Source: Desulfovibrio sp. (lineage in GTDB: Bacteria; Bacillota; Dethiobacteria; DTU022; UBA8154). From it: 39,310 nucleotides of DNA. Positions within the stretch are counted from its first letter, which is position 1, and each line of letters opens with the position of its first letter. A program made the translations under genes and the position numbers. Location: NCBI GenBank assembly GCA_020060185.1, contig JAGVAS010000121.1:1-39310 (forward strand), written 5' to 3'. The notes under the pieces are model-generated. The model saw only the letters and a program-made list of their open reading frames with translations, was not told the DNA's origin and made no database searches. Positions 88-39,115 of this stretch are shown piece after piece.

Positions 88-289
88 GAAAGATGACAAC
101 TTGTGCAGCGAAGCTAAAAGCTCACGTTGAAGCGAAGGTTGGAGATGGCCCTGCCGGCATGGAAGCCGGCAGCCGGGAGGTGAGTAGGATTCGAACTCTC
201 CCGGGAAGGTCATCGTAGACTCAAGCTGAAACGTAGAGCTTTCAGAGCGGAACTCGATAGCGAACCAACCTTCGCCACCCCATTTTCAT
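88..289 (-). repeat. Structured repeat family A, copy A1 (HEARO/omega-RNA-like)
   Basis: Minus-strand element that starts directly after ATGA (286-289), itself next to the TAA stop of the MCP gene. It reads AAATGGGGTGGCGAAGG at its 5' end, like copies A3, A4 and A5. Helices seen on the minus strand: AAAGCTC-(U)-ACGTT with AACGTGAGCTTT (12 pairs, one bulge); GATGACC with GGCCATC (one G-U pair); and the terminal hairpin CTGCCGGC/GCCGGCAG. The closing outer helix is weak at the 3' side, so this copy may be decayed there. Bases 1-87 beyond it hold no gene I can support, only a 6-bp hairpin GGCACA/TGTGCC without a clear T-tract. The repeat family is certain; its identity as a guide-RNA scaffold is inferred. 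Confidence 0.8.
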
Positions 290-290
290 A

Positions 291-2261
291 TTACATCCTG
301 AACTTCTTTACCATTTCCTGGAGTTCTTCGGCCATATTATTAAGCCGTGCCACGTGACCGTTAATCTCTTCCAGAACCGCTGTCTGTTCCTGGCTTGATG
401 CCGCTATTTCCTGGGCTGCTGCAGATTGTTCCTGTGCTCCTGCGGCAATACTAGCAACATAATTGCTTAGCACCGAAACTGATTTTAATATTTCATCAAG
501 GCCTCTTTCTACAAACCGTGCTTTTTTATCCCCTGTTGAAACTGCCACCGCTACAGCCTCCATTTTTTCCACGGCTTCCTGAATTCGCTGCTGAATTCCG
601 GAAATTAACCCTGATATTTCACCTGCAGCCCTACCGCTCTGTTCGGCCAGCTTGCGTACTTCGTCCGCGACTACGGCAAAACCCCGGCCCTGTTCCCCGG
701 CACGGGCAGCCTCTATGGCGGCATTAAAAGCCAAAAGGTTCGTCTGGCCGGTAATCTCCATAATAGTTTTAATGATGACATTTATTTTCCGGGAATAATT
801 GTCCAGATCGGCAACAGAATTACTGACATCCTTTACGACCAGGTCGATCTCTTCCATACTTTTAACCGCTTCCCGCACCGCTGCCACACCTTCACTGGCA
901 ATTTTTTCGCTGTCCTTTCCTTTTTGTGCGGCCTGCTCTGAAGCAGTGGCAATTTCCTGTGCTTTATGAGCCACGCTTTCACCGGCCGTTAAGGCGATCT
1001 CCTCCATAGCAGCATTGCTCTGCTGTACTGCTGAGGAAAGATCCTCTGCCGAAGCGGCTACTTTCCCGGATATCCCCTGAAGGGTCTCAACCATTTCTTT
1101 TAACCCGGCCAGCATGGCATTAAAACTTTCGCCGATCTGTCCGATCTCATCCTGCCGGGCAATATTGACCTGCTGGTTTAAAACACCGTTCTCGGCGTCT
1201 TTCATGCCTTTCACGATCCGGTTGATGGGTTCGGTAATTCCCTGGCTAAATTTGAAGGCCACTCCCAGGGCCACAATTAAGCTTAAACATCCAATTAACA
1301 GGAAACGGTTGCGGCTGGCATTCTTCATCGCGACAAATGGCGCCTCGGGAATCCCGACATAGAGCATTCCCACAACCTCATTGTCATAATCCCTCAGGGG
1401 CATATAGGAGGTTATGTAATAACTATCAACAACCAGAGCGCGTCCGGAAAAAGCCTCACCTTCATCCAGCACCTTTCTGGCTACGTTTTCGGCTGCCCGG
1501 GTACCTATAGCTCTTTCTCCCTGCTCTGTTAAAATAGTAGTGGCAATACGCAGATCTTCCAGGAAAATAGTAGAAGTAACATCGAGGGTTTTAGAAATAT
1601 GATCCACCAGGGTGTTATTATGATTTAAAATTTCCCCGCCAATAAGGACTCCCATGATGCGCTGCATATGGTCATAAACAGGCGCAGCTGCAATTAAGGC
1701 CAGTGCCCTACTCTCCCTTTCGGTGGAAGGAGCCCCCTCCCCGGACGTTCCTTCTATAACAGCATTTCCATCTAAACCTTCTTCTTTTAAGAAGCCCTCC
1801 TGCAAAACTACCACTCCGGAAGCAACCTGACCATGCAAGGCCTTTTTTAGGAGGGGTAGAAAGACACGGTTACCTGTTTGCATTTCACCGCTGGTAGCCC
1901 TGGCCATGACAAAAGAACCGGGGTCCAGTAAAGTTAAAAAATCCAGCTTAAATGCAGCCCTGTCAGTATAGATAGAGGCCAGGGCGGTCCTGAGATTATC
2001 TTCGTTCAAGGCATTTACAAGGGTATATTTATTTGCCGCCAGGTTAACCTGAGAAGCCCGCTGTTCCAGCCTTTTCATAAAAATATCCTCTGCAGCATTG
2101 ATATTCTTTTCCATGGTAATATGGGCCTGTCCTTCAATATTCTCTTCAAGGGAAACAAGAACCAGATACCCCGCTACTATTAAAGGTAACAAAGTTAAAA
2201 GAATTAAAATAGCAAGAAGCTTAAACCGTAATCCTGTTTTTATCTTTTCTTTTCCGGACAT
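291..2261 (-). CDS. Methyl-accepting chemotaxis protein (Cache-HAMP-MA)
   Basis: Transmembrane chemoreceptor that controls CheA through CheW. Transmembrane helix 1 spans about residues 14-38. An extracytoplasmic Cache-like ligand-binding region covers about 40-315, helix 2 about 320-342, a HAMP domain follows (about 343-395), then the long coiled-coil signalling domain. The near-invariant hairpin tip ([18 protein letters not shown]) is at about residues 505-522. There is no C-terminal NWETF-like CheR docking peptide; the protein ends MVKKFRM. The ATG has a good ribosome site (AAAGGAG, 6 nt upstream). It is the last gene of the chemotaxis block, after cheR. The ligand cannot be told from sequence. 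The stop codon abuts repeat A1. Confidence 0.96.
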
Positions 2262-2280
2262 AAGAAACTCCTTTCCATGC

Positions 2281-2336
2281 TATAAAAATGAGGTGGCAAA
2301 GGTTGGTGCTTACTTAAGGGTTCAAAGAGAGCCGGT
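2281..2336 (+). repeat. Family A fragment A6, opposite orientation, overlapping the cheR 3' end
   Basis: About 55 nt on the plus strand match the 5' end of family A, especially copy A3: AATGAGGTGGCAAAGGTTGG, then CTTAAGGGTTC and a GGTT end. It is decayed (ATAA in place of ATGA, several substitutions) and lacks the inner helices. It overlaps the last codons and TGA stop of cheR and ends close to the ribosome site of the MCP gene. It is the only copy on the plus strand. Confidence 0.7.
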
Positions 2337-3125
2337 TTTTTTCTGATAAATGGTATTGTAGCGTTTAAAAAACCCGAATTTACCCGGGTTACTGATATAT
2401 TCCGCCGAGCCGATTACGAGAATACCCCCCGGCTTTAAGACACGGGAAAAGCGCTCTAAGAGAAAATCCTGGGTCTCTGCTTTAAAATAAATAAATACAT
2501 TGCGGCAGAGAATCATAAGGCACCCGGAAACAGGAGCATCAACCAGGAGGTTATGTCTTTTAAAAATTACCTTCTTTTTTATTTCTGTTTTTAAACAATA
2601 TTTCTCCCCTTCCCTGTCAAAATAACGGTGAATATGCTCTTCCGGTGTTTTTTGCACATACTTGAGATCGTAACAGCCTTTTTGGGCTGTTAAAAGCGCC
2701 TTGTCATCCATATCTGTGGCGATGATTTGCGCCCGGTCCAGCACCTTAAGGGAATCAAGAATAATGGCTACAGTATAGGGCTCAGCTCCGATGGAACAAC
2801 CGGCACTCCACACGGTCAGGCTTTCAGGATAGTTTTTCAGCAGTTCCGGAAAAATTTCCTCTTTTAACCTGGCATAAACTTTTTCATCTCGGAAAAATTC
2901 CGAAGTGTTGATGGTAAGGTAATTAAAAAAATACTCCATGGCCGGAGGGGAATCAGCCAGGTACTGGTAAAAAAGATGGAAATCAGGCTTTCTTTCCCTT
3001 TGCATCAACTGCCTGATACGCCGCTCCATCTGCCTGTCCTTGTAACAATCCAGATCAAGTCCGGTTTTTTGATAAAATGCCGCTTTAAATTGAGCATAAT
3101 CCCAGGATCCAGAAAGCATTTCCAT
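2322..3125 (-). CDS. cheR: Chemotaxis protein methyltransferase CheR
   Basis: S-adenosylmethionine-dependent methyltransferase that methylates glutamates on chemoreceptors; partner of CheB in adaptation. An N-terminal helical CheR domain contains the basic stretch RQMERRIRQLMQR and the NTSEFFRD motif. It is followed by a Rossmann methyltransferase domain with the SAM loop SAGCSIGAEPYT and the later CRNVFIYF motif. I place the start at the ATG of MEMLSGSW (267 aa), because AAGGAGAG lies 7 nt upstream. The ORF-track start lies inside cheB and has no comparable site. The last codons (TGSL) and the stop fall inside repeat fragment A6, so the extreme C-terminus may have been replaced by the insertion. 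Confidence 0.95.
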   Translation of the reverse strand: MEMLSGSWDYAQFKAAFYQKTGLDLDCYKDRQMERRIRQLMQRERKPDFHLFYQYLADSPPAMEYFFNYLTINTSEFFRDEKVYARLKEEIFPELLKNYPESLTVWSAGCSIGAEPYTVAIILDSLKVLDRAQIIATDMDDKALLTAQKGCYDLKYVQKTPEEHIHRYFDREGEKYCLKTEIKKKVIFKRHNLLVDAPVSGCLMILCRNVFIYFKAETQDFLLERFSRVLKPGGILVIGSAEYISNPGKFGFFKRYNTIYQKKTGSL

Positions 3126-3144
3126 TATATCTCTCCTTGATTGC

Positions 3145-4197
3145 TTACCAGGTCTTGTTATTAGCAAGTAAACGGGTAATAGCCGGTGCTACCTGTTCCA
3201 GGGGCACAACCATATCTGCCGAACCTTTTTTAATTACAGCCTGGGGCATTCCGGAAATTACGGCGGTACACGGGTCCTGGACAATGGTTTTACCACCTTT
3301 TTCTTTTATCCTGGCCATTCCTTCGGCACCATCCCGTCCCATACCGGTTAAAACAACTCCTATAACAGAAGAGCCAAACGCCTCTGCCACGGATTCCATC
3401 ATCATATCGGCCGAAGGACGGACGTGGTTTACCGGGGCAGCGCGGCTCAAAAAGGTGGTACCATCCTTCACGGCGAGGAGGTGGTAGCCTCCGGGAGCCA
3501 CATAGGCCTCACCCTCCAGAATACTTTCCCCATTGCCGGCTTCTTTTACTTTTATAGGAGAAATTTTATCGAGCCTTTTGGACAGCGAACTGGTAAAACC
3601 TGCAGGCATATGCTGGGTAATAAATACAGCCGCCGGCAGACCTGCAGGCAGGCCCCGCAGCACCTCCTCCAGAGCCCGGGGGCCGCCGGTAGAGGATCCT
3701 ATAGCTACAATCCTACGGGCCAGCCGGCCGATAAGATCCGGCTGTCTCTTCCTGTCTTCAGGAAAGCTCAAGCTCTGGTAATTGCAAATACGGGCACTCG
3801 CGGCCGCCTTTATTTTAAGCGGCAGCAGCCGCTTGATTTCTTCGGCACTTTCTCCTTTAAAAAGAGAAGGTTTGGTTATAAAGTCTACCGCTCCGGAAGA
3901 GAGAGCTTCTATCGTAACTTCACTATCCCTTCTGGTGTGGCTGCTGACCATAATGACCGGCAGGGGGTTGTCCTGCATGATTTTCTTTAGAGTGTCCAGC
4001 CCGTTAAGCCTGGGCATCTCGATATCAAGTGTAATTACATCAGGCTTAAAATTTACTATTTTATGTAAAGCATCTTCACCGTCACAGGCCGTATTAACCA
4101 GTTCCAGCTCACTATCGTTCTGTATTATGTCGCTAAGAAATTTGCGCATAAAAGCGGAGTCATCAACAACCAAAACCTTCAAGCTTTTTTTTCCCAT
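3145..4197 (-). CDS. cheB: Protein-glutamate methylesterase/deamidase CheB
   Basis: Response-regulator methylesterase that removes methyl groups from chemoreceptors when phosphorylated by CheA. The N-terminal receiver domain (about 1-125) has the acidic pocket VVDDSAFMR, the phospho-acceptor Asp in VITLDIEMP, and the conserved Lys in FITKPS. After a linker, the C-terminal esterase domain has the Ser of IGSSTGGP, the His of TQHMP and the Asp of GMGRDGAEG, the expected catalytic triad. At 350 aa it has the family length. ATG start with GAGGAAG upstream. It lies between cheD and cheR in one run of closely spaced genes. Confidence 0.97.
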   Translation of the reverse strand: MGKKSLKVLVVDDSAFMRKFLSDIIQNDSELELVNTACDGEDALHKIVNFKPDVITLDIEMPRLNGLDTLKKIMQDNPLPVIMVSSHTRRDSEVTIEALSSGAVDFITKPSLFKGESAEEIKRLLPLKIKAAASARICNYQSLSFPEDRKRQPDLIGRLARRIVAIGSSTGGPRALEEVLRGLPAGLPAAVFITQHMPAGFTSSLSKRLDKISPIKVKEAGNGESILEGEAYVAPGGYHLLAVKDGTTFLSRAAPVNHVRPSADMMMESVAEAFGSSVIGVVLTGMGRDGAEGMARIKEKGGKTIVQDPCTAVISGMPQAVIKKGSADMVVPLEQVAPAITRLLANNKTW

Positions 4198-4232
4198 ACT
4201 TCTTCCTCATTTCCAACTATCCCGGTACATTT

Positions 4233-4718
4233 TTAAAGCTCTTTTTCACCTCTACCTACCGTGGTAATTACAACTTTGCCCGAATCAATAAAAAAACGCA
4301 TTGTACGGCCGAAATTACCCCCCACATCCTCCCCCCGGAGAGGGATCTCCAGTTCTTTCAAAGTCTGCCTGACTGCCTCTATATTTTTTTCTCCGACGCT
4401 GATGCCAGTCTTTTGGAAAGTAAACAGCTGGCTGCCACCGGCAATTTTGGCAGTAAACCTGATCCTTCTCCCGCCAGCTTTTTCCATTTTCTCGACCAGC
4501 AGGGGTATGGCCGTATCGGCAAACTTTGCCGGGTTAAAAGAATTTGACCTGTTTCCAAACTGGCAACTGCTGGAGAGGAGTATGTGAGCCAGCCCCCCTA
4601 CCTTATTTTCCGCATCATGTAAAGCTACTCCGACACAGGAACCAAGCCCCACTGTAATTAAAATTCCCTGGTCCCTGAGAACAGCCAGGTCGGCAATTTT
4701 TACTTTAAATGTATCCAT
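4233..4718 (-). CDS. cheD: Chemoreceptor glutamine deamidase CheD
   Basis: Deamidates receptor glutamines and, in Bacillus-type systems, binds and stimulates the CheY-P phosphatase CheC. The catalytic Cys lies in GLGSCVGVALHD and the His in GGLAHILLS, both as in the family; the length (161 aa) is normal. ATG start with AGGTGA upstream. It follows cheC by 4 nt, so the two partners are very likely co-translated. Membership of a CheC/CheD adaptation branch marks this as a Gram-positive/Thermotoga-style chemotaxis system. Confidence 0.97.
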   Translation of the reverse strand: MDTFKVKIADLAVLRDQGILITVGLGSCVGVALHDAENKVGGLAHILLSSSCQFGNRSNSFNPAKFADTAIPLLVEKMEKAGGRRIRFTAKIAGGSQLFTFQKTGISVGEKNIEAVRQTLKELEIPLRGEDVGGNFGRTMRFFIDSGKVVITTVGRGEKEL

Positions 4719-4722
4719 ATTT

Positions 4723-5328
4723 TCACCTGATGCCTAAAAGAGTAAATATTTTGTCCAAAGCCCCCCGGTCGGGAATGATGAGGATGTGGCCGGCAATATG
4801 GCTCTCCCGGGAGTTCAAGAAAGTTCTTAAAAGGACTACTTCATCATCTACAATGTAGGCTTCGGCCATGACAGTGGAAATAATTGCTCCGGACATATCC
4901 ACAGCTATTTCCGGGGGAGAAGGCAGCAACTGCAAATTAGTCATAAATGAAAGGGCATTCAGGTATGAAGAGGTCAGAATATTGCCTACTTCGATTAATG
5001 CTGATAGTCCCATTTCATCAAATTCCCCCCGTGACCCCGGCAGAAGAGTCGATACTAAATTGGAGGCGCTCTCCAGGGAGAGGACGAAGATAATTGTCAG
5101 GCTAATGTCTCCGTGTGACTCGATATATATGCCCGCCACGGGAAGTTCCGCCCCTCCCAGCAGGTCCGGAATATCCTGTAAAAGAGCCAGAGTGGCCACA
5201 GGAACGTCCATTTCCACTTTTTCCTCATTCAACATCTTGGACAGCGAGGTAATGGCATTACCCACACCGATGTTGGCCAGTTCTTTCAGGACATCAAGCT
5301 TGTTTTCGCTAAGTTTCCTTTTCTTCAA
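4723..5328 (-). CDS. cheC: CheY-P phosphatase CheC
   Basis: Dephosphorylates CheY-P and is regulated by CheD. It shows two copies of the CheC active-site pattern (D/S)-x3-E-x2-N: DVLKELAN near the N-terminus and SALIEVGN in the middle, so both half-sites look intact. The ORF-track GTG start (5337) overlaps the ribosome site itself (GAGGTG). The better start is the TTG three codons later (MKKRKLSENK, 201 aa), 6 nt after AGGTG. It sits between cheY and cheD, overlapping neither. Confidence 0.95.
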   Translation of the reverse strand: MKKRKLSENKLDVLKELANIGVGNAITSLSKMLNEEKVEMDVPVATLALLQDIPDLLGGAELPVAGIYIESHGDISLTIIFVLSLESASNLVSTLLPGSRGEFDEMGLSALIEVGNILTSSYLNALSFMTNLQLLPSPPEIAVDMSGAIISTVMAEAYIVDDEVVLLRTFLNSRESHIAGHILIIPDRGALDKIFTLLGIR

Positions 5329-5374
5329 GGGGTTCACCTCGTTCCCAGTATCTGCCCTGAACCGGTGGACTTAC

Positions 5375-5737
5375 CTACCCTCCCACCTTTTGCAAGGCTT
5401 CTACAATACGATCGGGTTGAAAAGGCTTTACAATAAAATCCTTAGCCCCGGAATTCAAAGCTTCAATAACCAGGGCTTTTTGACCCATGGCACTTACCAC
5501 GACTATCCTGGCCTCGGGATCCTTTTCCATAATCTTTTTTATCGCCGTAATCCCGTCCATATTGGGCATGGTAATATCCATAGTAACCAGATCGGGTTTA
5601 ACAAGTAAATATTTTTCTACAGCCTGAGATCCATCTTCTGCTTCGGCAACAACTTCGTACCCGTTTTTCTCCAATACATTGCGCAGCGTCATACGCATAA
5701 AAGCCGTATCATCAGTGATTAATACTTTTTTTCCCAA
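5375..5737 (-). CDS. cheY: Chemotaxis response regulator CheY
   Basis: Single-domain receiver that carries the signal from CheA to the FliM/FliN/FliY switch. It has the acidic pair ITDDTAFMR, the phospho-acceptor Asp in LVTMDITMP, and Lys in FIVKPFQPD. I choose the TTG start (MGKKVLITDD, 120 aa), which follows GGGAGGG by 6 nt and gives the exact CheY length. The longer ORF-track version begins inside cheA without support. The gene overlaps the 3' end of cheA by 26 nt, suggesting coupled translation of kinase and regulator. Confidence 0.96.
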   Translation of the reverse strand: MGKKVLITDDTAFMRMTLRNVLEKNGYEVVAEAEDGSQAVEKYLLVKPDLVTMDITMPNMDGITAIKKIMEKDPEARIVVVSAMGQKALVIEALNSGAKDFIVKPFQPDRIVEALQKVGG

Positions 5738-7844
5738 GATTAACCCTCCCATCGTCAAGCAAACTGGCAACATCCAGGATGAGAGTTACCCTACCGTCTC
5801 CAAGCACCGTGGCACCAGCAATTCCTTTAATATCATTGATAAAGTTGCCAAGGGATTTAATGACAACTTCCTGCTGGCCCAGGAGCTCGTCGACGATAAG
5901 CCCGGCCTTTTTATCGCCGGTCTGAACAACTACCACAGGATAAACTTCCTGTTCCCGAAATTGCCCCATACCCAGGCTTTCTTGTAAAGAATAAAGGGGT
6001 AAGACCTCTTCCCTCAGGGTAATAACTTTGCCCTGACGGATCGTTTTAATTTCCTGCGGATCCACAAAAAGGTTTTCCCGGATGGCTTCAATGGGAATGG
6101 CATAGACTTCTTTCCCGGACTGGACCATAAGGGTCCTGATAATGGCCAGCGTCAGGGGAAATCTGAGGATAAACCTGGAACCTTTTCCGGAATTACTTTT
6201 TACTTCTACCGTCCCGTTAAGAGTTTCAATAGCTGTCCTGACAACATCCATACCCACGCCCCGTCCCGAAATATCGGTAACCTCCTCAGAAGTGCTGAAA
6301 CCACTGCGAAAGATAAGACGTAGGGCTTCTTCAGAACTCATTTTCTCAGCCTCTTCCCCGGTGATAATCTTTTTCTCCAGGGCCCTGGTTTTAATAACCT
6401 GCGGATCCATTCCCCTGCCATCATCCTCCACGCTAACCACTACATGACTTCCTTCATGATGCGCCTCCAGGAAAATTTTCCCCGCAGGGTTTTTTCCGTT
6501 TTTAATTCTCTCTTCTGCTTCTTCTATTCCATGATCAACGGCATTGCGTAAAAGGTGAACAAGCGGATCACCAACCTGGTTGACAATAGTACGATCCAGC
6601 TCCGTATCTTCTCCGGAAATGAGCAATTCCACTTCTTTATTTCTTTCGAGGCAAAGATCACGGACCATGCGTGGAAAACGGTCAAAGACCTGCTTTATGG
6701 GCACCATTCGTAAAGTCATAACAGCGTTCTGAAGTTCCGTGGTAATCCTTTCCAGTTGTTCCAGGGAACTTTCCAGCATTTCGTCACTTACTTTTTTCCC
6801 CAGATCAACCACGCGGGTACGGTTGATGATTAATTCGCCTACAAGGTTAACCAGGCTGTCCAGTTTCGCTGTTTCTACACGTACTGTTTTTTCCACGTTA
6901 CGCGCAGATAAAGAAGGCGCCTTGACCTTTGGTAAAGCTCGAGGAGTTTCTTCCGGTGTTTCTTCTTCATTTTCCATCAACAAGGATACTTTCCCGGGAA
7001 AAAGGGGCGCCGCAGCGCTATCACCATTGAGGGGTGCTGTAACCGGTGTCTCCGGCTTATCTTCAATATTGACCGGTAAAATGTCTGCACTTTCTATTTC
7101 AGCAATACTTTCAATGGATTTTTTTAAAGCTTCCATATCGGGCCTTCCAACAAGTAATAGGGAAAACTCCCAGTCAAAATTTTCTTCCTCCAGGGCTTGG
7201 AGAGGAGGCATTGTTTTAATTACCTCTCCCTGCTTCTCAACAGCTTTAAGGACCATATAGGCGCGTACCGATTTCAATAGGCAACCATGGAGGAGACAAA
7301 CATGAACATGGTAGATATTATCACCCCTGGAAAGAGCATCCTTAAGCATCTCTTTCTCAAATTCATTCATAATTTCTTTCCAGCTAATCCAGCTCTCCCG
7401 TACCGGTGGTTTCCCCTCTTGTAGTTGCTCACCCTGTTCCAAGGTATCACTTTTAAAAGCAACCTCTTTCCCGGGGTTCTCCTGCCAGCCTTGCAACTTT
7501 TCCTGCATTATTGCTACTTCCCTGTTAAAATCCTCCTGCTTGTCCAGGTTGTCGACAAGAAGCTGTACCAGGTCCACTGCTTCGAAAAGCATATTAACAA
7601 AACCCGTCTCTATTGCGGCCTTTCCACTACGCAACTGGTCCAGCAGGCTTTCCATTTCGTGAGTCAGCCCCGTAATAAGTTCGTACCCCATGGTGCCGGC
7701 CATACCTTTTAAGCTATGCGCGGCACGAAACATTTCCGTAAGCTGTTCGCTGTTGGAGTTTTTTTCCATATCCAGCAGGCAGCGCGTCATATCCTGCAGG
7801 TATTCCTGGGCTTCAGCAAGAAAAAGATCCCTGTACTCTTCCAT
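5712..7844 (-). CDS. cheA: Chemotaxis histidine kinase CheA
   Basis: Central kinase of the receptor array; it passes phosphate to CheY and CheB. Domains in order: P1 Hpt with the phosphorylated His in AAHSLKGMAG (about residue 43); a P2 docking region with long linkers; P3 dimerisation helices (DSLVNLVGELIINR); P4 ATPase with the N box HLLRNAVDHGIE and G boxes DDGRGMD and GRGVGMDVV; and a P5 CheW-like domain to the C-terminus. The start is taken at MEEYRDLF (710 aa), with a GGGGGAG site just upstream; the first 12 ORF-track residues are probably untranslated. It overlaps cheY at its 3' end. Confidence 0.97.
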   Translation of the reverse strand: MEEYRDLFLAEAQEYLQDMTRCLLDMEKNSNSEQLTEMFRAAHSLKGMAGTMGYELITGLTHEMESLLDQLRSGKAAIETGFVNMLFEAVDLVQLLVDNLDKQEDFNREVAIMQEKLQGWQENPGKEVAFKSDTLEQGEQLQEGKPPVRESWISWKEIMNEFEKEMLKDALSRGDNIYHVHVCLLHGCLLKSVRAYMVLKAVEKQGEVIKTMPPLQALEEENFDWEFSLLLVGRPDMEALKKSIESIAEIESADILPVNIEDKPETPVTAPLNGDSAAAPLFPGKVSLLMENEEETPEETPRALPKVKAPSLSARNVEKTVRVETAKLDSLVNLVGELIINRTRVVDLGKKVSDEMLESSLEQLERITTELQNAVMTLRMVPIKQVFDRFPRMVRDLCLERNKEVELLISGEDTELDRTIVNQVGDPLVHLLRNAVDHGIEEAEERIKNGKNPAGKIFLEAHHEGSHVVVSVEDDGRGMDPQVIKTRALEKKIITGEEAEKMSSEEALRLIFRSGFSTSEEVTDISGRGVGMDVVRTAIETLNGTVEVKSNSGKGSRFILRFPLTLAIIRTLMVQSGKEVYAIPIEAIRENLFVDPQEIKTIRQGKVITLREEVLPLYSLQESLGMGQFREQEVYPVVVVQTGDKKAGLIVDELLGQQEVVIKSLGNFINDIKGIAGATVLGDGRVTLILDVASLLDDGRVNLGKKSINH

Positions 7845-10830: not shown

Positions 10831-10911
10831 TTACCAGCTCCCCTTTTTTCTTTATATACTAACATAAAACAACAATTTTCGAAAGAAAGATAGGGTAAAA
10901 TGTTAAGAAAA

Positions 10912-11070
10912 TCCTGGGCGGGCATGGAAGCCCGCCACAGGACAGCGAACATGGAAGTGAGCTCTGCCGGGTAGACCAATCAAAAGCCGGAGCTTAAGCT
11001 GTAAAACCTGTCTCAAGCGAACCCGTTAGCGAATCAGCCGCCACCAGCAAAACGCTGCGTCTATTCTCAT
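10912..11070 (-). repeat. Structured repeat family A, copy A2 (3'-truncated, variant 5' end)
   Basis: Minus-strand copy starting after ATGA (11067-11070), right behind the TAG stop of flgG (TAGTATGA). Its 5' end differs from A1/A4/A5: it opens with the small hairpin GCAGCGTTTTGCTG, also seen in motif B, before joining the common body (GGGTTCGCTTGAGACAGG). The terminal hairpin GCGGGC/GCCCGC is extended by TCCTG/CAGGA. The return strands of the long helices are missing, so the copy ends early, near 10912. The rest of the gap to the fliM start is AT-rich and holds the fliM ribosome site. Confidence 0.75.
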
Positions 11071-11071
11071 A

Positions 11072-11926
11072 CTAGGCCTGCACGTTTAAAGTCAGGGCCC
11101 AAAATTCATCGGCAGAAGTAGCCGCCCTGGCGGAAGCCTGCAGAGCCCTTTGCCCGCGGATGAGCATGATCATTTGCCGGCCAACGTCCACATTGGCTTT
11201 TTCCAGGGAACCCTGCCTGATCTCTCCAAAGCCCGCTTTTCCAGCTTTTCCTTCCAGGGGCGGCCCGCTGGCCGCTGAAGGCAATAGAAGGTTTTCCCCG
11301 ATATAAGAAAGGCCCTGGGGGTTGGCAAAGCGGTAAAGAGACAGCTCTCCCAGCTTAATCAAACCGGCAGGGGAATGGCTTTTTTCGCCCGGAAGTTCCT
11401 GGAAGAACTTCCGGCCTTCCCCCGTTTCTTGGAAAGGACGGGCATAAATTTCTCCTCCTGGAGTAATTTCCAGTGTGGAGAAGTCCAGATCTTCATGCAA
11501 ATCCTGCCCGTTAAGAGGAGGGTCAAGACGTAATCCCCTACTGGTAACCATGTTTCCCTCCGAATCCAGTGTAAAATTACCGCCACGGGTAAAAGCATAA
11601 CTGCCATCCGGCCTGATAACCCGCAAATAACCTTCACCGGCAATAGCCAGGTCCAGGTTATTTCCCGTAAAAGCAAGAGGGCCTTCTTCGCAAGATGAGG
11701 TAACACTTAAAAGTTCGACTCCCCTTCCGCAGCGTCGGGGTGCTGAAGGCTCACCTGCTTCCGGCAGGCGGCGCTCTGCCAGGTTCCTGCTGGGCAAATC
11801 CGCGAAGGAAACTTGTTTCTCCTTGTAGGTAACGGTATTAACATTGGCCAGGTTATGAGCGACTATATCCAGCATCTGCTGGTACGCCCGCAAACCAGTA
11901 TAGCTGTTCGCCAGGGATTTAAGCAA
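11072..11926 (-). CDS. flgG: Flagellar basal-body rod protein, FlgG/FlhP type
   Basis: Distal rod protein exported by the flagellar type III machine. The N-terminal rod motif (LDIVAHNLANVNTVTYK), a central FlgG-like region (LAIAGEGYLRV, FTRGGNFTLDSEGNM) and the C-terminal EKANVDVGRQMIMLIRGQRA are as expected. Its length (284 aa) is close to the family size. TTG start with AGGGGAG 8 nt upstream. It is second in a two-gene unit with flgF, transcribed from a sigma-28 promoter. FlgF, FlgG and the Bacillus FlhO/FlhP are close homologues, so the letter is assigned by order and could be exchanged. Confidence 0.85.
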   Translation of the reverse strand: MLKSLANSYTGLRAYQQMLDIVAHNLANVNTVTYKEKQVSFADLPSRNLAERRLPEAGEPSAPRRCGRGVELLSVTSSCEEGPLAFTGNNLDLAIAGEGYLRVIRPDGSYAFTRGGNFTLDSEGNMVTSRGLRLDPPLNGQDLHEDLDFSTLEITPGGEIYARPFQETGEGRKFFQELPGEKSHSPAGLIKLGELSLYRFANPQGLSYIGENLLLPSAASGPPLEGKAGKAGFGEIRQGSLEKANVDVGRQMIMLIRGQRALQASARAATSADEFWALTLNVQA

Positions 11927-12722: not shown

Positions 12723-12756
12723 AAAAACCCTCCTTACTTACTTATAATTTATTTCC

Positions 12757-12832
12757 GGGTTACAACAATGGATGATCACGACCTGGTTTAGATCCCGCTG
12801 TGTTTCACAGACGCAGCGTTTTGCTGGTGGTG
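12757..12832 (-). repeat. Associated repeat motif B, copy B1
   Basis: Short repeat in the flgF leader, directly after copy A3 on the minus strand. It shares with B2 the core GCGGGATCTAAACC, then GGTC and CATCCATTGTTGT. It begins with the small hairpin CAGC-AAAA-CGCTG, and the 22 nt at 12809-12830 are the exact reverse complement of 11041-11062 in copy A2. No reading frame is conserved between the two B copies. Its role is unknown; it could be the other end of the element that carries family A. Confidence 0.7.
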
Positions 12833-13077
12833 GAGTGACTTGTGCAGCGAGGAAACAAGTTCACTGCGAAACGAGAGCTGAAGACGACCCAGCTGACAGG
12901 ATGTCAGCTGCCGGTGATGACCATGGACGGGAATTCCGCCGGGGAGGTCGTCGGAAGCTCGAGATGAGTAGTAGAACTTGGGCGAGAACCCGGAACTCCG
13001 CTAACAGCAAACGCTGCTCATATAACCTGTCTGTGCGAACCCTTAAGCGAGCACCAACCTTCGCCACCCATTTTCAT
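12833..13077 (-). repeat. Structured repeat family A, copy A3 (composite)
   Basis: Minus-strand copy after ATGA (13074-13077), placed just downstream of a sigma-28 promoter. The first ~50 nt are a normal family 5' end (GGTGGCGAAGGTTGGTGCTCGC). They are followed by a second TATGA (13018-13022) and the hairpin GCAGC-GTTT-GCTG, after which the element body begins again. Helices: CAAGTTC-(U)-ACT with AGTGAACTTG; GAGCT/AGCTC beside GACGACC/GGTCGTC; terminal hairpin CAGCTGAC/GTCAGCTG. It looks like one element inserted into the 5' piece of an older one. Together with B1 it fills the 383-nt gap before flgF. Confidence 0.78.
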
Positions 13078-13082
13078 ACTTA

Positions 13083-19255: not shown

Positions 19256-19273
19256 CCCCGTTCTCTTCTGCTT

Positions 19274-19491
19274 AAAAAGGTTGTGGCGAGCGAAATGTGC
19301 AGCACAGCAAACAGGTTCAGCGAAGCGACGGCCTTAAGATGGCCCGGCGGACATGGAGGTCCGCCGCCGGACAGCGCGAACATGGAGGTGAGCTCTGCCG
19401 GGTAGGCCAATCGAAGGCCTGAGCTTAAGCTGTAAAACCTGTCTCAAGCGAACCTTGGAGCGAGCACCAACCTTCGCCACCTCATTTTCAT
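19274..19491 (-). repeat. Structured repeat family A, copy A4
   Basis: Minus-strand copy after ATGA (19488-19491, within TAATATGA). Helices: AAGGTTGGTG with CACAACCTT at the base; ACAGGTT-(3-nt bulge)-CAGC with GCTGAACCTGT; GGCCT/AGGCC beside GATTGGCC/GGCCATC; terminal hairpin CGGCGGAC/GTCCGCCG. The base pairs differ from A1, A3 and A5 at almost every helix yet stay complementary. It lies in the 440-nt gap between flhB and flhA, 18 nt before the flhA start, within the presumed leader RNA. Confidence 0.8.
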
Positions 19492-19512
19492 ATTAACCGC
19501 CACGACCCTACT

Positions 19513-19596
19513 GGTCACAACAATGGATGAAAATGACCGGGTTTAGATCCCGCGATTTTTCTATAGACGAAGCAGCAAACGCTGCGCTATTTTCAT
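19513..19596 (-). repeat. Associated repeat motif B, copy B2
   Basis: Starts after ATGA (19593-19596, within TAATATGA), like family A. It opens with the hairpin GCAGC-GTTT-GCTGC and continues to the shared core GCGGGATCTAAACC and CATCCATTGTTGT found in B1. A short spacer separates it from copy A4. Two different elements using the same junction in tandem suggests a common integration mechanism. Confidence 0.7.
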
Positions 19597-19651
19597 ATTA
19601 TTAATCTTTTTCCACAAATTACTACAACAGGTAACACCCGGATCTGTTATT

Positions 19652-26281: not shown

Positions 26282-26358
26282 CTACAGGTCACAAAAAATG
26301 GATAGAAATGGACTACAAATAACTTAAATAGAGCTTTCCCCCCGCCTTACCCCCTGGA

Positions 26359-26573
26359 GGTGGCGAAAGGTGGCGAGCGACTTGTGCAGCGAAGCAAAAA
26401 GTTCACGGTGAAGCGAGGGCTGAAGACGACCCTGCCGGCTGGATGCCGGCAGCCTGCCTTTGACTATGGACGAGAATTTGGCCGGGTAGGTCGTCGGAGG
26501 CCTGAGCTGAACCGTAGAACGATCTCAAGCGGAACTCGGAGCGAGCACCAACCTTTCGCCACCCCATTTTCAT
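26359..26573 (-). repeat. Structured repeat family A, copy A5 (best preserved)
   Basis: Minus-strand copy after ATGA (26570-26573), right behind the TAA stop of flgE (TAATATGA). The outer helix is a perfect 13-bp pairing, GGTGGCGAAAGGT with ACCTTTCGCCACC, closing the whole element. Inside are GTTC-(U)-ACGGT/ACCGTGAAC, GACGACC/GGTCGTC and the hairpin CTGCCGGC/GCCGGCAG. This gives a clear ~205-nt unit and is the best template for a family model. No protein frame is shared by the copies. Confidence 0.85.
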
Positions 26574-26574
26574 A

Positions 26575-27792
26575 TTAACGCTTGATATTAATAAGCTCCA
26601 GGAGCACCTCGTCGGAAGTGCTTATTACCCGCGTGTTCGCCTGGAATGCCCGGCTGGTGGTAATCATCTCCGTAAACTCATTAGCCAAGTCCACGTTGGA
26701 CATTTCCAGGGCCCTGGACTTGATCATACCGCGCCCTTCAACGCCTGGTAATCCTATCCTGGGTTCACCGGAATTGGAGGAAACATCGTAAAGGTTGGAA
26801 CCTATTTTTAACAGCCCCTCGGGATTGGCGAAAGAGGCTAAGGCTACCTGGGCGATCTGCCGCACCATACCGTTGCTATAGGTGCCGGTAATTACACCTG
26901 TGGACTCGATATTGAAGGTTGCCAGCTCCCCCGGGGCAAAACCGTCCTGCTCCCTGACAATCACATTGCTGTTAAAAGCAAGTTGGGTAAGGGCTGTGAA
27001 ATCGGGAGTAACTTCAAGATCCTCAGCCCCCGTTCCCGGGTTAAAAGTGAAAGGATTAATAGTAGTTTGGCCTGGATCATAACGTCCGTCTTTCGTAAAA
27101 TAAATAGTGCCAGAGCCTAGAGAGTTAGGGGGATCGGCACTATCGAAGATTTCATACTCCCACTCATTATCACCGGTTTTAGTGAAGGTAAAGGTCAGGG
27201 CATGCCTGTTTCCGAGGGAATCATAAATATAAGTATCGTATATATAAGTATCATTAACTTCAGCGGCCGCATTAAGATTCCCCGTAAATCCGATATTACC
27301 CGTGGCCCGGGCGATCGACTCCTCACCCAGGGGAATACGGATCTCGCCCAGAATCTTGGAAATATCTGTTTCTTCCCCCATCCAGCCCATAAGCTTATAG
27401 CCGTTGGCGTTGACCAGCACCCCGGAAGAATCCCGGGTGAAAGAGCCGTCCCTGGTATAGAAGTACTGGTAGCCGTCACTGACTACAAAGAAACCGCGGC
27501 CCTCAATAGCGAGATCGGTTTCCCGGCCGGTGCTGGTAATGGGTCCCTGCGTATGCACCGTATCGATAGAGGAAATCCCCATGCCCAGGCCGATCTGCAT
27601 GGGATTGATACCGCCTCTTCCGGCCAGAGGAGCCGTGGCTCCTCTCAGGGTCTGGCTGAAAATATCCTGAAAACGTACCACACCGCATTTATAAGACACC
27701 GTGTTTACATTGGCAATATTGTTACCGACCACATCCAGCTTGGTCTGGTGGTTGCGCAGACCAGAAACTGCCGTGGATAATGAACGCAACAT
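26575..27792 (-). CDS. flgE: Flagellar hook protein FlgE
   Basis: Hook subunit. It shows the N-terminal rod/hook motif LDVVGNNIANVNTVSYK, a FlgE D2 domain (YIYDSLGNRHALTFTFTKTGDNEWEYEIFD) and the C-terminal MSNVDLANEFTEMITTSRAFQANTRV. The start is the ATG of MLRSLSTAVSG (405 aa), behind AAGGAGG. The 27 extra ORF-track residues come from the leader. A 15-nt tandem duplication gives TYIYDTYIYDS in the D2 domain. Last gene of the flgB block, ending at repeat A5. Confidence 0.96.
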   Translation of the reverse strand: MLRSLSTAVSGLRNHQTKLDVVGNNIANVNTVSYKCGVVRFQDIFSQTLRGATAPLAGRGGINPMQIGLGMGISSIDTVHTQGPITSTGRETDLAIEGRGFFVVSDGYQYFYTRDGSFTRDSSGVLVNANGYKLMGWMGEETDISKILGEIRIPLGEESIARATGNIGFTGNLNAAAEVNDTYIYDTYIYDSLGNRHALTFTFTKTGDNEWEYEIFDSADPPNSLGSGTIYFTKDGRYDPGQTTINPFTFNPGTGAEDLEVTPDFTALTQLAFNSNVIVREQDGFAPGELATFNIESTGVITGTYSNGMVRQIAQVALASFANPEGLLKIGSNLYDVSSNSGEPRIGLPGVEGRGMIKSRALEMSNVDLANEFTEMITTSRAFQANTRVISTSDEVLLELINIKR

Positions 27793-27912
27793 TTCAATTA
27801 AGACCTCCTTAGTATGAAAATAGGCTGGTTCGTGGGCTGTTGGCAGAGACTCAGGGCGGGCTGTTTCGGTCATTCCACAGCCCGGGGCTTCCCCCTTAGA
27901 AGGTCCGGCCCC

Positions 27913-28836: not shown

Positions 28837-30369
28837 TTATACGAGATAATCCACTCTTCTTTTCTCTCCCCACAGTTCAAGGGATAAACCCTGCGTTTCC
28901 CCCGTCACAGCATCTCCTGAACGTGCATCTGCAAAAGAAGACAGATCGCCTGCCCGGTAACCTTTGGCAAAAGCGAAGCCCTGCCGTCCCTCATCCCTTA
29001 CGAAGACCTGGAAACGTTCGACGTCGAGATTCACCTGTTGGAAGCGCTGCCGTAGCGTTTCCATCTGGCTCTCCAGCAGTTCCTTTATGGCTGCATGCTG
29101 GGTGATGATCTCCCCGGACAGAATACCCTTCATGCGGCGTACGCGAATGAGCACCTCTCCCAGGAACTCAGGCTGCAGCTTGAGGCGCAATTCCTGTTCA
29201 CCGGGCCTTGCCAGGTAGTTAACCCGTTCCACAATCTGCTCCATAATCTCCCGGGAGTACAGCTGTGGATCTCTCAGAACCTGCAGGCCGGAATAAAAAG
29301 GAGTGTTTCCTTCCAGCGCTGCTTTAAAGTTCCCGCTTGAGGACAAAAGAGCTTCTCCGTCCTCACTGGGTAAAAAAGGGTAACGGTTTCCCTGCCCCAT
29401 AGCAATATCCTTATCCTGTTTCCCTATGGAGCTTTCCGCTGCAGGGACTGCCTCCTCTCCCTCTTTTACGTCCAGGTAGGATCTTAAAAAATTTTCAACC
29501 CGGGACAGGAAGGAAGCCGGGGGTATGTGACGAGTCTCATTTTCGGGCAAAACCAGCATGCCGGCAGGATGGTCCTGCAGTTCCCCGAGTATGTCAGGAT
29601 GAAGCTCTTGCAGCGGTTTTCCCTGCTGCAGGTAGGAAAAAGCAAGTGCCCTGGCCTGCGGGGTCAAGCTACCCTGATCGTCCACCAGTGGAATCCGCCC
29701 GTAGAGCAGCTGTTTTTCCAATCCATGGATTTCCTGCTGCGCCTGTTTCCCCGCCTCTTGCGCCTGTTTCCCCGCCTCTAAAAAAGAAAGGCGGCTTTTT
29801 CCGGGCAAACGTGGAGACAGCTCTGCAGGAATATTATCCTGATCGCTGGCAGGAATATCTTGCCGATCGCTGGCAGGAATATCACCCAGATCGCTGGCAG
29901 GAATATCACCCAGTTCATTAAAATGAAATTTCCCGCCTTCCCCGGGAAGTTGTTCCTCCGGGATATTTGTTTCTACTGCTGTTTTTTCCGGTACAAACTG
30001 CAACTCTTCCCCCCCGCCTGCAGGCTCTTCCGCGGGCTGTATGGCCTCGTAGGGCTCAGTCTCCGGCAGGCACTGCTGCAAAGAGTCCCCGGGCTCCTGT
30101 TCCGGAAGCTTAACCCCTTCCCCTGGTGGCTCCACATTAGGCGGGCTGAAGAAACCGGGCATCCCCGGGTTAGAGGTAAATTTTTCCCGGAAAAAGTTTT
30201 CAGGTTTTTTTTCCTCAATATCCCGGGGTAAAGAAGCGGAAGAAGACTTCTCAGAAAATATTCCTTTCAACATGCCGGAAAAATCCTCCCCGGTTTTTAT
30301 GGAAAATCGACCGGTGACGGTTGGGCCGTCTTGCCCGGAGACTGCAGAGGGGAATATTTCTACTCTCAA
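28837..30369 (-). CDS. fliK: Flagellar hook-length control protein FliK
   Basis: Secreted ruler that sets hook length and triggers the FlhB switch. The C-terminal ~100 residues hold the conserved domain (ELRLKLQPEFLGEVLIRVRRMKG ... LRQRFQQVNLDVERFQVFV). The N-terminal ~300 residues are low-complexity, rich in Glu/Pro/Gly. They contain two short tandem repeats: 24-nt units coding for DIPASD-type octapeptides, and a 21-nt unit coding for GKQAQEA. Such regions vary in length and could alter the ruler. TTG start behind AAGGAGGTGA. 510 aa. Confidence 0.93.
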   Translation of the reverse strand: MRVEIFPSAVSGQDGPTVTGRFSIKTGEDFSGMLKGIFSEKSSSASLPRDIEEKKPENFFREKFTSNPGMPGFFSPPNVEPPGEGVKLPEQEPGDSLQQCLPETEPYEAIQPAEEPAGGGEELQFVPEKTAVETNIPEEQLPGEGGKFHFNELGDIPASDLGDIPASDRQDIPASDQDNIPAELSPRLPGKSRLSFLEAGKQAQEAGKQAQQEIHGLEKQLLYGRIPLVDDQGSLTPQARALAFSYLQQGKPLQELHPDILGELQDHPAGMLVLPENETRHIPPASFLSRVENFLRSYLDVKEGEEAVPAAESSIGKQDKDIAMGQGNRYPFLPSEDGEALLSSSGNFKAALEGNTPFYSGLQVLRDPQLYSREIMEQIVERVNYLARPGEQELRLKLQPEFLGEVLIRVRRMKGILSGEIITQHAAIKELLESQMETLRQRFQQVNLDVERFQVFVRDEGRQGFAFAKGYRAGDLSSFADARSGDAVTGETQGLSLELWGEKRRVDYLV

Positions 30370-38414: not shown

Positions 38415-38639
38415 ATGAAAGCCAAAATTACATCTAAAGGACAGGTTACCATACCCAAAAAGGTAAGGATATCGCTGGGTTTAAAAACAGGTGACGAAAT
38501 CGAATTTGAACCTGCAAGCAAAGGATTTATAATCAAAAAAAAGCCTGGAGCATCCCCTTTCGACAGGTATGTTGGTCATCTCAGCTCTAGAAGAGGTGAA
38601 GACATTGACTCCATAATTGAGGAGCTCCGTGGTAAATGA
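38415..38639 (+). CDS. vapB: AbrB/MazE-type antitoxin (VapB-like)
   Basis: 74 aa. Residues 1-46 are an AbrB/SpoVT swapped-hairpin DNA-binding domain (MKAKITSKGQVTIPKKVRISLGLKTGDEIEFE). The remainder (FDRYVGHLSSRRGEDIDSIIEELRGK) is the likely toxin-binding tail. ATG start with GGAGG 8 nt upstream. The TGA stop overlaps the toxin ATG by 4 nt (ATGA), typical coupling for a toxin-antitoxin pair. Expected to neutralise the PIN toxin and repress the operon. Confidence 0.9.
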   Translation: MKAKITSKGQVTIPKKVRISLGLKTGDEIEFEPASKGFIIKKKPGASPFDRYVGHLSSRRGEDIDSIIEELRGK

Positions 38640-39115
38640 TTACAGCAGTAGACACCAATATACTCCTTGATATTCTTATACCCGATTCTCCATACCTGCG
38701 GTCTTCCAAACAGCTGCTTGATGAAGCATACCGGGAGGGGTTAATTATTATCAGTGAAATAGTGTATGCTGAACTGGCTGTGCAATTTCCTGATCCTGAA
38801 GATATAGATGTCTTTCTTAAAGATACAGGTATAGAAGTACTCTCCAGCAGCAAAGAGGTGCTTATAGCTGCGGCAAGAGCATGGTCATCGTTCACCAAGC
38901 AGCGGAAAAAAAATCTAAAACTGCAGTGCTCTATCTGTGGCCATGAAGCGGTTATTACCTGCTCGGAATGCGGGGAGCAAATTATAGCCAGACAACATAT
39001 TCTCAGCGATTTTTTGATCGGCGCCCATGCCTTTCACAATGCAGACTTATTGCTGACCAGAGACCGGAGGTATTACCAGACATACTTCCCTTCACTTAAG
39101 ATAAAGTCACCTTAA
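38636..39115 (+). CDS. vapC: PIN-domain toxin (VapC-like) with inserted zinc-ribbon motif
   Basis: 159-aa PIN-fold ribonuclease, longer than the usual ~130. Acidic residues expected at the metal site are present: D6 (VDTNILLD), E46 (EIVYAELA), D125 (SDFLIGAHA) and D143 (LTRDRRYY). Between the third helix region and D125 lies a CSICG-x7-CSECG segment (C98, C101, C109, C112), a four-cysteine zinc-ribbon pattern. Its role could be structural or RNA-binding; unknown. Overlaps the antitoxin stop. Confidence 0.9.
   Translation: MITAVDTNILLDILIPDSPYLRSSKQLLDEAYREGLIIISEIVYAELAVQFPDPEDIDVFLKDTGIEVLSSSKEVLIAAARAWSSFTKQRKKNLKLQCSICGHEAVITCSECGEQIIARQHILSDFLIGAHAFHNADLLLTRDRRYYQTYFPSLKIKSP

Follow-up and report, generated by a model that had tools for sequence, protein, structure and literature searches.

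A TwoAYGGAY-like RNA fold carried by MITE-like elements in Bacillota is a putative CsrA-binding module

The window, by which we mean the whole 39,310-nt stretch of DNA analysed, carries flagellar genes, and five copies of a structured RNA element (A1 to A5) are spread among them (Table 1). All five had been marked in a first-pass annotation; they are present where it placed them and belong to one family. Its description was amended for A2, which is real but holds just the 3′ two thirds of a copy, and for A3, which is likewise real but is a type II element apparently sitting in a type I remnant. The strings quoted there as common to the copies do not occur in all of them, as GCGAGCACCAACC is found in A3, A4 and A5, and ACTTGTGCAGCGAA in A1 and A5, with one mismatch in A3. 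Three copies, A1, A2 and A5, have a 3′ end that touches or overlaps the stop codon of a neighboring gene. The end of A1 overlaps the stop codon of an ORF at 291-2261(-), and the final TTA of the A5 terminus is also the stop codon of a flagellar hook-type gene on the - strand (26575-27873). Such placement may be a way for an element that targets YTAR to insert harmlessly. Elsewhere in the window, a MazE/AbrB-type antitoxin gene followed by a probable PIN-domain toxin gene lies on the + strand beside flaG (38415-39115, where the Pfam run covered the antitoxin only), and a 24-bp direct repeat occurs three times (GCAGGAATATC..GATCGCTG) at 29825-29907, inside a long - strand ORF (28837-30369).

Table 1. 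Positions of the element copies, their parts and related features. Positions are those of the window unless a locus is named.
Feature	Position	Strand	Remarks
A1 element	97..293	+	core 116-244; P5 loop AUGGAA, P6 loop AGGAU
Isolated remnant of type I element, 3′ end	2280..2323	-	
A2, 5′-truncated copy with type II 3′ end	10906..11074	+	
A3 leader remnant and type II element	12754..13019	+	leader remnant 12754-12785; core 12855-12982
Type I element, 3′ remnant	13025..13082	+	A3 apparently nested in it
A4 type I element	19273..19495	+	core 19311-19443; both apical loops AUGGAG
Core-deleted mini-element	19496..19601	+	immediately 3′ of A4; leader and type II 3′ end only
A5 5′ leader remnant GGTCACAAAAAATGGATAGAAATGGA	26287..26312	+	homologue of the leader in other copies, GGTCACAACAATGGATGAAAATGA
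A5 type I element, outer stem and structured RNA core	26359..26573	+	coordinates of the first-pass annotation
A5 130-nt conserved RNA core (model R1)	26397..26525	+	three-way junction, two GGA-loop hairpins
A5 3′ terminus CCCATTTTCATATTAA	26563..26578	+	
fliW, csrA, fliD, then element copy	L274 (G279:C4:418000-424500), 2955-5841	one strand	
REP-like hairpin copies	L021:1277-1528, L010:1331-1584, L001:1460-1696, L151:1661-1833, L142:1526-1700		

A search of the host genome (G000) gave 47 matching places at E ≤ 0.001 and 62 with a longer query; about 50-60 copies were detected, A5 among them. The density across 355 kb of large contigs elsewhere in this genome was 0.051 elements/kb, which corresponds to ~125 copies per genome. 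The copies had initially been tied to the flagellar operon, but they proved to be genome-wide; the flagellar window holds 5 copies against 2.0 expected (P = 0.05), and a special link to flagellar operons is not claimed. Because many copies lie at contig ends, the assembly breaks on the elements. The intact unit in this genome is ~290 bp long. It begins with a 5′ leader (CCGCCACGACCCTGCGGGTCACAACAATGGATGAAAATGACC), after which come one half of an outer stem, for which there are two types, the RNA core and the second stem half, and it ends in a 3′ terminus (CATTTTCATA) followed by YTAA. The size of ~200 nt given earlier therefore covers the RNA core and outer stem only, and leaves out the leader and the YTAA-ended terminus.

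Copies were also found in tandem and nested in each other, as in L063, where the order is 5′ half, 5′ half, full copy, 3′ half and 3′ half. The nesting in L062, L063, L193 and L184 is of a Russian-doll kind between types I and II, with inner copies replacing part of the outer apical region. Core-deleted mini-elements that keep both ends are present in the window and in L188, L189 and L202. In one copy (L130:2743-2871) the core is inverted relative to the two different ends of the element, and several copies, from several genomes, carry a REP-like hairpin (GGGGACACACCUC..GAGGAAUGUCCCC) as an insertion in a similar region of the element. The orientation of elements to genes is random (35/30/22/19). 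Cis-regulation of neighboring genes was considered and rejected, since orientation and neighbors both appear random. No promoter or terminator belonging to the element was identified.

The core fold was examined with RNAalifold in 51 distinct cores from the genus, giving 37 pairs, 27 of which showed two-sided compensatory changes. In an alignment of 80 cores from 21 genomes, which was fitted to the model and so leans towards it, unlike the genus alignment, two-sided changes were present at 36 of the 37 pairs, and 93.7% of cells were paired, whereas shuffling gave 68.1% and sliding the partners gave 45.5% or less. The proposal that the helices are kept by compensatory changes thus holds both genus-wide and across the 21 genomes, and selection on RNA folding rather than on protein is supported. 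A tally of pair types in the genus alignment gave 97 G-U pairs and 27 A-C mismatches for the + strand; as the wobbles exceed the mismatches, the + strand is the RNA strand, and the strings quoted in the first-pass annotation belong to the opposite one. Folding of A5 by itself was better than in 200 of 200 shuffles on the + strand (z -4.8) and less good on the - strand (z -3.8). In the fold, a stem that contains symmetric loops of purines (GA/GA, GGA/GGA) opens into a three-way junction bearing hairpins P5 and P6, and the internal-loop purines are conserved as well as the GGA loops. Within genomes, the core varies less than the ends. Among seven copies in genome G417, 0 of 126 core sites were variable compared to 22 of 160 flanking sites, the flank including some bases outside the element, and in genome G057 the diversity was 0.077 for the core and 0.18-0.35 for the ends.

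All five genomes of the genus carry the element, the named relatives being uncultivated Bacillota and Dethiobacter sp. SURF_39. A covariance model of the core detected the family in 16 genera of the class (28 genomes out of 98) and, in a sample of 399 genomes of the phylum, in 33 genera (41 genomes). Several carriers, among them G219, G350 and G417, have genomes of high quality or in a single contig. No matches to the core were found in the viral contigs, plasmids and phages searched.

The view of the copies as a repeated mobile element is supported by the ends of the element in related genomes. Copies in G057 have inverted repeats (CACTACAGCGAAAAAT) with the TIR CACTACAGCG and 4-bp YTAR duplications, and 6 of 13 pairs of target duplications are identical compared to 0.86 in shuffles. 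E. coli IS5 likewise uses YTAR (PMC10359306). Three nearly identical copies in G279 show the TIR CTGAGTTATCCCCAG, with CTGAGTTATCCCCAG and GGGGATACGCCAG as termini; their duplications measure 9 bp, of which ATTATTCAT and TACTGCCAC are exact and CCTGGGCTG/CCTGGGCGG has one mismatch (8/9). Near-identical sets of copies were found in both G279 and G417, and the seven copies of the latter have GAGACCACTGAAAAAG ends in common. The elements in G057 and G279 are short and non-coding, with terminal inverted repeats and target duplication, and they behave as MITEs; the duplications are of the type made by DDE transposons. The ends of elements in G000 and G417 differ from those in G057 and G279, and termini of unrelated types in different hosts indicate that one RNA core rides on several types of terminal repeat. 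In G000 itself the ends are asymmetric and YTAA lies on both sides. Of 35 flank pairs, 9 match, no better than in shuffled pairs (7.6); the duplication is not significant, so the mechanism in this genome is inferred from the relatives.

A candidate source of the mobilizing enzyme for G057-type elements is an IS701-family locus of a different genome, G062, as the inverted-repeat tip CACTACAGCG is common to both. This transposase locus (L228:603-2646, G062:C194) has inverted repeats CACTACAGCGCAAC. An autonomous parent with both core and transposase was not found via leader or inverted-repeat sites, which gave shorter derivatives only. IS200/IS605 elements make no target-site duplications, and an IS200/IS605 reading of the YTAA flanks was dropped in view of the real duplications in G057 and G279.

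The apical loops of the two hairpins are mostly A(N)GGAN, the CsrA/CsrB motif. A GGA is present in both apical loops of all five window copies; in A5 the loops are UGGAU (P5) and AUGGAC (P6), and in A3 AGGAU (P5, within ACAGGAUGU) and AUGGAC (P6). Across the 80 sequences, GGA is found in the P5 loop of 73 and the P6 loop of 76, while the stems below change freely. The CsrB-type CA(N)GGANG is present in 62 and 51 of the 80, respectively, and exact ANGGAN loops in 27 and 37. The two GGA sites start 27 nt apart. In comparison, the SELEX consensus of CsrA is RUACARGGAUGU with the GGA in a hairpin loop, the repeats of CsrB are CAGGA(U/A/C)G, and CsrA bridges two sites best at a spacing of >18 nt (PMC7652899). 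Some P5 stems exceed the CsrA optimum in length and stability, and a loop of five bases, not six, is common in P5. The GGA excess of the whole element over dinucleotide shuffles is modest (6.2 compared to 5.1 per 210 nt). In G279, fliW, csrA and fliD lie in a row with an element directly downstream on the same strand. Another G279 copy (L272:7888-8011) adjoins a flagellar FlgE/F/G-type gene. In the host genome, no csrA was seen in the small readable part (19 large stretches alone cover ~14%).

When the element copies were compared to all Rfam families, TwoAYGGAY (RF01731) was the only one recurring at elements. Its scores at elements of five genomes were 35.6, 35.4, 29.1, 26.5 and 19.4 bits, and the model aligns full-length to copies in G319 and G417 with scores below the cut-off. 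At A5 itself TwoAYGGAY gave no match, and HEARO and every other Rfam family were likewise rejected there. As the Rfam gathering threshold of 43 bits was not reached, the element was not assigned to TwoAYGGAY. This RNA, which has tandem GAs in its stem, was put forward in 2014 as a candidate CsrA-binding RNA of Clostridia (PMC4333381). On the basis of the match of the GGA loops to CsrA sites, the recurrence of TwoAYGGAY and the fliW-csrA-fliD neighbor, CsrA binding is the most likely function of the core RNA, one that we consider probable. The conserved internal-loop purines could, however, point to a protein other than CsrA.

The explanation we favor, with moderate confidence, is that the copies are MITE-borne, TwoAYGGAY-like RNAs that bind and titrate CsrA. 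They would be non-autonomous MITE-like elements, about 260-330 bp in length, with a single conserved RNA fold at the heart of each that has a long stem, purine-rich GA-type internal loops, a three-way junction and two adjacent hairpins with A(N)GGAN loops. Transposases encoded elsewhere would move them; in at least one host, with its YTAR duplications, the mover is probably IS701-like, and in a second, where the duplications are 9 bp long, it is probably of another DDE type. The RNA would most likely be transcribed through read-through from adjoining genes, and its paired GGA loops, at their 27-nt spacing, could then bind CsrA dimers as proposed for TwoAYGGAY. If the loops do bind CsrA, the copies would jointly form a dispersed CsrA sponge, a copy inside an mRNA would be a local CsrA site, and the element RNA might in this way have an effect on flagella.

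A different reading of the same fold, which we consider unlikely, is that it serves the MITE itself, for instance through binding to a transposase, a k-turn protein or some host factor, and that CsrA plays no part. In favor of this, the core is retained in different hosts although the terminal repeats are unrelated, it is better conserved than the element ends, and the conservation extends beyond the GGA loops to the internal-loop purines. However, the core-deleted mini-elements retain both ends at several sites, as if movement needs no core, and the loops correspond to a known protein site in their sequence and spacing as well as in loop position. It is less probable still, and in our view improbable, that the element is a purely selfish fold-back MITE that pairs at the DNA level, as a cruciform or single-stranded intermediate, and has no RNA function. 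The long terminal stem, the insertion in any orientation to genes and the nested and tandem copies would suit this, but the wobble bias lies on one strand, and the branched fold and its loops are conserved over 33 genera, whereas the interior of an ordinary fold-back element is free to drift.

Finally, the first-pass annotation had suggested kinship with the HEARO/omega-RNA scaffolds of IscB, IsrB or TnpB elements, here without a nuclease, on account of similar size, multi-helix fold and multiple copies; TnpB-like fragments are indeed present in three genomes of the genus, but the HEARO model (RF02033) matched no element and nothing in the host genome, and we regard this reading as exceedingly improbable. 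HEARO is excluded because the model works elsewhere in the class, matching four other genomes at or above the cut-off (up to 164 bits), none of which carries the element core, and never matches at elements, and because the target duplications and terminal inverted repeats of the relatives do not fit IS200/IS605. The RRXRR domain of IscB-type proteins (PF14239) had no match in the host genome or in any control genome. Y1/TnpB partners were also rejected, as the host genome has fragments only and the loci fetched around them contain no element core.

The favored explanation of MITE-borne, CsrA-binding RNAs suggests that mobile elements are the form in which putative CsrA-binding RNAs spread among these bacteria. 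CsrA-sequestering sRNAs are recognized in Gammaproteobacteria, and for Bacillus the reviews consulted name the FliW protein as the only CsrA antagonist (PMC7652899, PMC4894983). More tentatively, and with rather less confidence than we place in CsrA binding, we propose that a CsrA-sponge RNA has turned into a transposable element, its GGA-hairpin module residing in several unrelated MITE families at up to ~125 copies per genome, and that copy number and insertion sites may set the level of free CsrA in Bacillota, and with it flagellin and carbon control, alongside FliW. If true, a transposable module with ends that differ between hosts would give a regulatory RNA a new route by which to spread and to change its dosage. 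A search of the literature on IS701 MITEs and mobile CsrA sponges found nothing relevant. A phylum-wide covarying RNA with paired CsrA-type loops, one copy of which adjoins fliW-csrA-fliD, makes the 2014 proposal for Clostridia (PMC4333381) directly testable, and the element family extends that proposal well beyond the Rfam model.

Among known systems, the MITEs of IS701-like and other DDE transposons resemble the element in being short and non-coding with terminal inverted repeats, target duplications and nested insertions; unlike the element, ordinary MITEs lack one covarying RNA fold common to families with unrelated ends. HEARO is also mobile, about 200 nt and multi-helix, but differs in fold and insertion mode in addition to the failure of its model to match. 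CsrB/CsrC and RsmX/Y/Z share with the element several GGA motifs, two of them here in hairpin loops with CAGGANG/ANGGAN at suitable spacing. However, they are regulated sRNA genes of Gammaproteobacteria that occur in one copy and have many sites in each molecule, whereas the element core has two loop sites, many genomic copies and no promoter identified as its own. With TwoAYGGAY, which is found in Clostridia, the element shares two neighboring hairpins with AYGGAY-type loops, a stem below them with tandem GA mismatches (GA/GA and GGA/GGA, read by eye) and a poorly conserved outer stem. A difference, besides the scores below the cut-off, is that here the RNA belongs to a transposable element present in many copies, which has inverted repeats and shows target duplications. 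The element is thus best read as a TwoAYGGAY-like RNA that putatively binds CsrA and takes the form of a high-copy transposable element.
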